Shown here in pieces: positions 12,235-12,316 of a stretch of DNA of 64,000 nucleotides. How positions within the stretch are numbered: the stretch's first letter is position 1; each line of letters starts with the position of its first letter. The stretch comes from Clostridiaceae bacterium (GTDB taxonomy: Bacteria; Bacillota; Clostridia; Oscillospirales; Acutalibacteraceae): positions 1 to 64,000 of the forward strand of contig JAEERC010000003.1 of assembly GCA_016285645.1 (NCBI GenBank). Direction: 5' to 3'. The notes under the pieces were generated by a model. The model saw nothing but the letters and a program-made list of their open reading frames with translations, ran no database searches and had not been told where the DNA came from. A program made the position numbers and the translations under genes.

Positions 12235-12280
12235 CGATAACCGAATATCGCAATTCATTAAACAGGATGCAAAGGCGCAT
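12235..12280 (+). promoter_or_regulatory. Two-hairpin ANTAR binding element in the gdhA leader
   Basis: Hairpin P1 is CGATA-[ACCGAA]-TATCG (12235-12250), a perfect 5-bp stem. After a 16-base linker comes P2, ATGC-[AAAGGC]-GCAT (12267-12280), a perfect 4-bp stem. Both loops have six bases with A at position 1 and G at position 4, the signature of ANTAR targets. The loop and 3' arm of P2 are also the 5' arm of the terminator starting at 12271, so P2 and the terminator exclude each other. P1 begins four bases after the ANTAR gene stop codon. Confidence 0.85.
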
Positions 12281-12316
12281 TACCCGTTTGGGGCAGTGCG
12301 CCTTTTTTTATTTTTG
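12271..12316 (+). terminator. Regulated terminator before gdhA
   Basis: A stem of about 14 pairs starts with AAAGGCGCA (12271-12279) and closes with TGCGCCTTT, with one mismatch and a short loop, followed by a long U-run and TATTTTT. It overlaps hairpin P2 of the ANTAR element. It separates the glnA1-ANTAR pair from gdhA, and is either readthrough-controlled or a plain terminator. Confidence 0.9.

Follow-up and report, generated by a model that had tools for sequence, protein, structure and literature searches.

Does the glutamate dehydrogenase gene gdhA, encoded directly behind an ANTAR protein gene in a gut clostridium, have the paired hexaloop hairpins of known ANTAR targets in its leader, or is one hairpin enough? 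The question arises from the first 64,000 nucleotides of a Clostridiaceae contig (JAEERC010000003.1), the stretch analyzed here and called the window, in which two small hairpins, P1 and P2, precede gdhA. A sequence-only reading of this DNA had described them as a full two-hairpin target. We conclude, with a probability of about 0.77, that gdhA is preceded by an ANTAR attenuator of the single-hexaloop type, one of five such elements in the window (Table 1).

Table 1. Features of the nitrogen gene cluster and its leaders, with positions in the window
Feature	Position	Strand	Basis or remark
asnB, asparagine synthase	8511..10106	-	
asnB leader GGC[AAAGAC]GCC within 5' arm of 15-bp terminator	10129..10161	-	
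Predicted promoter of asnB leader	10174..10202	-	
Predicted promoter of glnA1-ANTAR, TTGACT-17-TATAAT	10304..10332	+	
glnA1 leader single hexaloop hairpin TGAAC[AAAGGC]GTTCA	10339..10354	+	
Terminator-like stem overlapping glnA1 hairpin	10344..10389	+	Sequence; relatives
glnA1, glutamine-synthetase-like protein	10414..11622	+	Lys aligned with GlnA2 flap Glu
ANTAR protein with receiver-like domain	11653..12231	+	PF03861 68.4 bits, cut-off 27.3
P1-like hairpin CGATA[ACCGAA]TATCG	12235..12250	+	Upstream of gdhA; direct reading; not conserved
P2 hexaloop hairpin GATGC[AAAGGC]GCATT	12266..12281	+	Before gdhA; conserved element
Intrinsic terminator with T run	12271..12310	+	5' arm formed by P2 loop and P2 3' arm
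gdhA, NADP-specific glutamate dehydrogenase	12367..13707	+	NF006929 734.5 bits, cut-off 536
Predicted promoter of glnA2 leader, TTGACA-17-TAAAAT	15417..15445	+	
glnA2 leader unit 1, AAGGC[AAAGGC]GTCTT and overlapping terminator-like stem	15457..15507	+	
glnA2 leader unit 2, GAAGC[AACGGC]GCTTT and overlapping terminator	15538..15580	+	
glnA2, glutamine synthetase	15803..17146	+	Homology

Direct reading of the gdhA leader confirmed the coordinates of both hairpins, which have A at the first and G at the fourth loop position (A1/G4) and are separated by a 16-nt spacer. The core of P2, ATGC-AAAGGC-GCAT, occupies 12267 to 12280 and is extended by a G·U pair at 12266/12281. The earlier claim that the loop and 3' arm of the second hairpin double as the 5' arm of a terminator was likewise borne out, the terminator stem-loop running from the P2 loop (12271 to 12305) with the T run next. 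The leader from 12232 to 12312 folds at -27.0 kcal/mol (z, -3.59), a value equaled by none of 200 shuffles, because of the terminator. When cut at 12286, it folds into the two hairpins at -7.4 kcal/mol, and the two small hairpins alone do not stand out from shuffles (z, -0.60), 50 of 200 of which fold as well. A hairpin pair with an overlapping terminator occurs at this single site on the two strands of the window, in two overlapping P1 registers, and in none of 20 first-order shuffles per strand. Rfam 15, proposed earlier as a check, gave no family at gathering score on the gdhA leader, the matches at E values up to 5 lying far below it; six loci from cultured or closely related organisms gave T-box, tRNA, and c-di-GMP riboswitch matches, none at the hairpins. 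Between the gdhA terminator and the ribosome site there is also a small CCGG/CCGG hairpin (12328 to 12341), whose arms are kept in L003 to L006 with different loops.

The gene directly upstream does encode an ANTAR protein, as had been claimed (domain match, 4.7e-19), and no second ANTAR gene was found in the genome (2.6 Mb, 97.9% complete). An AlphaFold2 model of the protein (mean pLDDT, 93.4) had RNA-bound EutV as its best PDB match (6ww6_B; TM, 0.78), with Rv1626 and AmiR (1qo0) among the next. EutV Met172 and Tyr164 correspond to M176 and H168, both invariant in 30 sequences (the 6ww6 chain numbering is off by one from that of the paper), and basic residues of the window protein stand at the positions of EutV Lys143 and Lys147. 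Counting against our reading, the position of EutV Arg142, a change of which lowers RNA affinity 8-fold according to passages of PMC8934654, is Thr or Ile here. The receiver-like domain scores 23.1 bits with the Pfam receiver model (cut-off, 30.2) and has no acidic pair at strand 1; its phospho-acceptor Asp, D60 in the window protein, is Asn in many relatives. Control by phosphorylation therefore seems unlikely.

Comparison with relatives separated the two hairpins. Of the 13 relatives in which the ANTAR gene adjoins gdhA, 10 have retained P2 (L003 to L007, L010, L012, L013, L014, and L016), all with the terminator in the alignment; in the other three, L008, L011, and L015, it is degenerate or absent, which we count against our reading. 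A hairpin resembling P1 (A1/G4, 3 bp or longer) was observed upstream of P2 in 1 of the 13, L007, where its position and sequence differ from those in the window; the spacer of the closest relative, L003 (88% in the ANTAR protein), has no P1. Across the 11 aligned leaders, from the window and the ten P2-bearing relatives, column 19 pairs twice: its partner in P2 is column 6, and in the terminator it is column 35. In 5 of the 11, A6-U19 and U19·G35 are replaced by C6-G19 and G19-C35, a three-way compensatory change. The covariation of stems that the sequence-only reading had named as a test was thus found for P2 and the terminator; P1 is not conserved. In a further locus, L009 (G016:C179), a P2-like hairpin follows the ANTAR gene, the sequence beyond it is unrelated, and nothing in the locus matches gdhA; this is perhaps the edge of an insertion.

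The gdhA element belongs to a nitrogen cluster extending from 8.5 to 24 kb that contains asnB, glnA1, the ANTAR gene, gdhA, guaA, glnA2, and an AmtB-PII fusion; further members read, in translation, like split glutamate synthase genes. Four further single-hexaloop elements in this cluster had been missed by the earlier reading, and we therefore speak of a regulon. No P1 was listed upstream of the glnA1 and asnB hairpins or of either glnA2 unit. The first stem base of the glnA1 hairpin lies 7 nt past the predicted -10 box. Its T tract is interrupted in this genome, and the stem falls under the threshold of the loop-blind scan described below. Sequence upstream of glnA1 was available for 29 loci (L028 is without any), and a leader hairpin of at least 4 bp was found in 20 of them: 15 of 16 same-genus loci plus L017, L018, L019, L021, and L027. 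It is lacking in L029, whose glnA closely follows another gene. The glnA2 leader has two units in tandem. Among the 15 loci where identity reaches 88% or more, unit 1 was present in 14 (one of them a variant; not in L071) and unit 2 in all 15, with a simple T-run test failing in 5 listed glnA2 rows; in the window, unit 1 has its T run a few bases on and is also under the scan threshold. The asnB motif was found in 16 of 24 upstream regions. Its absence in the other 8 and its stem of 3 bp both count against our reading. In 15 of the 16 motif-bearing asnB leaders (L043 was left out of the alignment), loop A1 and G4 are invariant, and loop positions 3, 5, and 6 vary, mostly together with the terminator 3' arm. 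No A1/G4 hexaloop hairpin was seen by eye in the window's amtB-PII leader or in that of its first glutamate synthase gene. Two other features of the region may be recorded. A short acidic open reading frame (ORF) (15614 to 15784) between the tandem attenuators and glnA2, resembling one seen by eye in the DNA of L063, L066, L067, L068, and L072, might encode a small regulator of glutamine synthetase. At 17216 to 18970, an ammonium transporter and a P-II domain are fused in one reading frame.

In the genome, model R1 scored the five window elements at 24.2 to 27.1 bits and the next four sites, with no T run behind them, at 21.8 to 23.7 bits. The 69 training rows of R1 were chosen by loop and partial stem patterns and included the window's own five elements, a point we count against our reading, so this ranking is by construction. 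For that reason we also made loop-blind scans, collecting all hexaloop hairpins with stems of 4 bp or more that overlap a terminator, whatever the loop. In the window, the scan found three of the five elements, which we likewise count against our reading, with 0 to 2 hairpins for each other loop kind and 0 to 1 A/G hairpins in 20 window shuffles. The survey was then made on named loci centered on related ANTAR genes, from which the best 80 out of at least 586 were taken; close named relatives are uncultured members of the Ruminococcaceae and Clostridia, two of which come from goat omasum. These loci yielded 129 hexaloop hairpins over terminators, 94 of which had A1/G4 loops; each of the other 15 loop combinations occurred 0 to 6 times, and A/G loops numbered 1, 0, and 0 in three shuffles. 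The 94 A/G elements (93 distinct) are spread over 57 of the 80 loci. The 23 loci without any loop-blind match are counted against our reading. Elements were also found at L176, from the cultured [Clostridium] methylpentosum.

Upstream of these 94 elements P1 is at background level. An A/G hairpin was present in 5 by strict criteria (other loop kinds, 0 to 5) and in 7 by relaxed criteria (other kinds, 1 to 9), and under the strict criteria a P1-like hairpin of any given kind occurs in about 2% of leaders (31 over 16 kinds in 94 leaders). What does lie upstream is a predicted promoter, scoring at least 10/12, directly before 67 of the 94 hairpins. Such a promoter was found at 0.68% of 5,000 random places and at 0 to 4 of 93 to 94 shifted places, and in 64 of the 67 promoter-abutted elements the -10 box ends 7 to 13 nt before the fifth stem base. 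If these promoters are real, there is no room for P1 in those leaders.

A set of dual-hexaloop loci was sought as a positive control. Thirty EutP-linked loci gave one A/G match, without P1, and were not useful; 40 other ANTAR loci of the phylum were therefore used, hand-picked from the top of the matches listed and not at random (ANTAR was present in 202 of the 398 genomes of the phylum search). They contained 24 A/G hairpins among 49 elements, with P1 at 10 of the 24 (other kinds, 0 to 4) and an abutting promoter at none. The named and control loci differ by Fisher test in P1 (p = 1.6e-4) and in promoters (p = 3.3e-11), values to be read with the proviso that related rows are not independent. 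Linkage to glnA was considered as an explanation of single versus dual sites and found no support: a glnA gene within 2.5 kb is a feature of 27 of the 36 control loci in which BLAST found the ANTAR gene and of 77 among the 80 named loci, and glnA and glutamate synthase genes are often present in control loci with or without P1. With glnA common in both sets, the contrast between single and dual sites seems to be one of lineage.

The genes behind the 94 elements were assigned by their nearest window protein: glnA2 for 28, the glutaminase part of glutamate synthase for 20, glnA1 for 11, pyrG for 7, amtB-PII for 5, gdhA for 4, guaA for 1, and purF, weakly, for 1; 14 match no window protein, and the remaining 3 lack an ORF. 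A large share of the glnA matches are weak (26 to 39%) and long (about 590 amino acids, cut by the search length), and these we take to be GSIII; one that was profile-scanned fell far under the glutamine synthetase model cut-offs. Four of the 14 unmatched ORFs were tested and proved to be purC, nadE, asnA, and purA. The list thus consists mostly of enzymes that use ammonia or glutamine nitrogen or that make purines or NAD.

ANTAR (PF03861) is present in 74 of 119 relatives, and its association with the elements was tested on the 62 R1 matches (E ≤ 0.02) whose genomes either lay outside the training set or lacked ANTAR. An overlapping terminator was found at 24 of 43 matches in 27 ANTAR-bearing genomes and at 3 of 19 in 15 ANTAR-less genomes (p = 0.005). 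Against our reading, motif and terminator occur together without a detected ANTAR gene in three genomes, G003 (83% complete), G005 (71%), and G048 (97%). In the last of these, a promoter-hairpin-terminator element (L235; G048:C60) stands at a contig end.

How, then, should the gdhA leader be read? It has what a canonical dual-hexaloop target should have, in which P1 recruits the ANTAR dimer and P2 competes with the terminator: P1 has an A1/G4 loop, a 5-bp stem, and a 16-nt spacer, resembles the motif published in PMC3369931 as far as passages of that paper describe it, and has a P1-like counterpart in L007. However, L007 is the only such case among the 13 relatives, the closest relative has none, the other four window elements have none listed, and the frequency in the 94 related elements is that of background. 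We therefore consider the two-hairpin target unlikely, and the best explanation of P1 at gdhA in this genome is chance or recent addition. What survives of the earlier interpretation is an ANTAR-type attenuator before gdhA whose hairpin excludes the terminator; the two-hairpin part does not.

Two other explanations dispense with the ANTAR protein, and both are less probable still. A binding site for some other RNA-binding factor or a small ligand would account for the three genomes with motif and terminator but without a detected ANTAR gene. We think this improbable, since the A1/G4 hexaloop is the published ANTAR signature (PMC3369931, in part), terminator-bearing matches track the presence of ANTAR, and most of the RNA-contact residues compared are kept. 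Least probable of all is that these are plain intrinsic terminators with an incidental hexaloop. A strong terminator right behind the ANTAR stop codon could simply end the glnA1-ANTAR operon, but the stems at glnA1, glnA2, and asnB lie between a predicted promoter and the gene, A/G loops outnumber every other kind many times over, and the three-way covariation keeps both P2 and the terminator.

The best reading of the computed features, namely sequence, conservation, covariation, lack of P1, adjacency to a predicted promoter, and association with the ANTAR gene, is a class of single-hexaloop ANTAR attenuators that lie close to the promoter, occur throughout the lineage, and make up a nitrogen regulon, with a relation to the known ANTAR protein NitR. 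Binding by the ANTAR protein, antitermination, and a nitrogen signal at the elements we infer. During transcription of the leader, the short A1/G4 hexaloop hairpin would form first. The active ANTAR protein would grip its loop and hold the hairpin, denying the terminator its 5' arm, and the gene would be transcribed; with the protein inactive, the terminator would form and transcription would stop. The hairpins of gdhA and of the other nitrogen genes are probably read by the neighboring ANTAR protein, which would act in the same way on the glnA1-ANTAR, asnB, and glnA2 leaders. In this lineage an upstream recruitment hairpin would not be required, and in most leaders found the predicted transcript would begin at the hairpin. 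By analogy with NitR, read-through would be likelier under nitrogen limitation.

The signal may reach the ANTAR protein through a partner, in the manner of AmiR. GlnA1 is a short protein with an altered ASAV loop and, in the window protein and in 23 of 28 relatives, a Lys opposite the flap Glu of GlnA2 (Glu in the other five). The flap Glu of glutamine synthetase is catalytic. We hypothesize that GlnA1 is the sensor partner of the ANTAR protein. A precedent is the control of TnrA by glutamine synthetase in Bacillus, as related in a passage of PMC6316151. Taken as a whole, the scheme in which enzymes of ammonia and glutamine in a lineage of Clostridia are under one-hexaloop ANTAR attenuators at the transcript start, with no recruitment hairpin and with a GlnA1 sensor controlling a pseudo-receiver ANTAR protein, is put forward tentatively, as possible rather than probable.

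The near absence of the second hairpin in relatives bears on the open question of how an ANTAR switch works. Single hexaloops abutting a promoter are natural constructs for testing the recruitment-hairpin model, and they raise the question of whether P1 is dispensable through the 5'-end position, through tandem copies, or through a different protein. The proposed nitrogen regulon would be that of a gut group of Clostridia, some of which, such as [Clostridium] methylpentosum, are in culture.

Several known systems can be compared with these elements. Induction of ammonium-assimilation genes through antitermination by an ANTAR protein is already known from NitR of Clostridium saccharobutylicum, an ANTAR-family, antitermination-capable protein that induces GS/GOGAT genes on nitrogen limitation according to the review passage from which we know it (PMC6316151); nitR is also mentioned in a passage of PMC4676874. 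ANTAR protein and nitrogen genes are common to both systems, and a nitrogen-responsive role for the window element would fit NitR. The NitR targets (Stutz et al. 2007) may be single or dual, so some of what we describe may already be known from that work. In Desulfotomaculum, dual-hexaloop regulons close to genes for glutamate synthase share the same gene themes; as passages of PMC3369931 describe them, they were found with a dual-hairpin search model, whereas the present group is single-hairpin. The AmiC-AmiR pair of the Pseudomonas amidase operon also has an ANTAR protein with a pseudo-receiver (PMC8934654, in part); here the partner would be GlnA1, the hexaloops are single, and several operons are involved. 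No published family of single-hexaloop attenuators was found in the literature searched, which covered few subscription papers.

The closest comparison is with EutV/EutW of the Enterococcus faecalis eut genes, which resemble the present system in the A1/G4 hexaloop over an intrinsic terminator and in the fold of the ANTAR protein. The differences are that one hexaloop rather than two is present here, that the hairpin mostly lies where the transcript is predicted to start, that the protein has no acidic pair and in many relatives Asn for the phosphorylated Asp, and that the genes are those of nitrogen assimilation. Published ANTAR targets are dual hairpins with a short linker (PMC3369931, in part), and antitermination by EutV is held to need both hexaloops in the passages available from PMC8934654, a point we count against our reading. 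According to the same passages, the EutV dimer holds a single hexaloop at any one time; Walshe et al. (2022) proposed a minimal single-hexaloop site, leaving the role of singles to bioinformatics and experiment. The sequence features of that minimal site appear to be present in the elements collected by the loop-blind scan. Measured against the dual-hexaloop definition, we found P2 over an intrinsic terminator, A1/G4 conserved (94 of 129), and an ANTAR gene in the genome, and the definition failed at P1, which is in the window sequence yet not conserved. On these features, the element before gdhA looks like the known type of ANTAR attenuator minus one of its defining parts.
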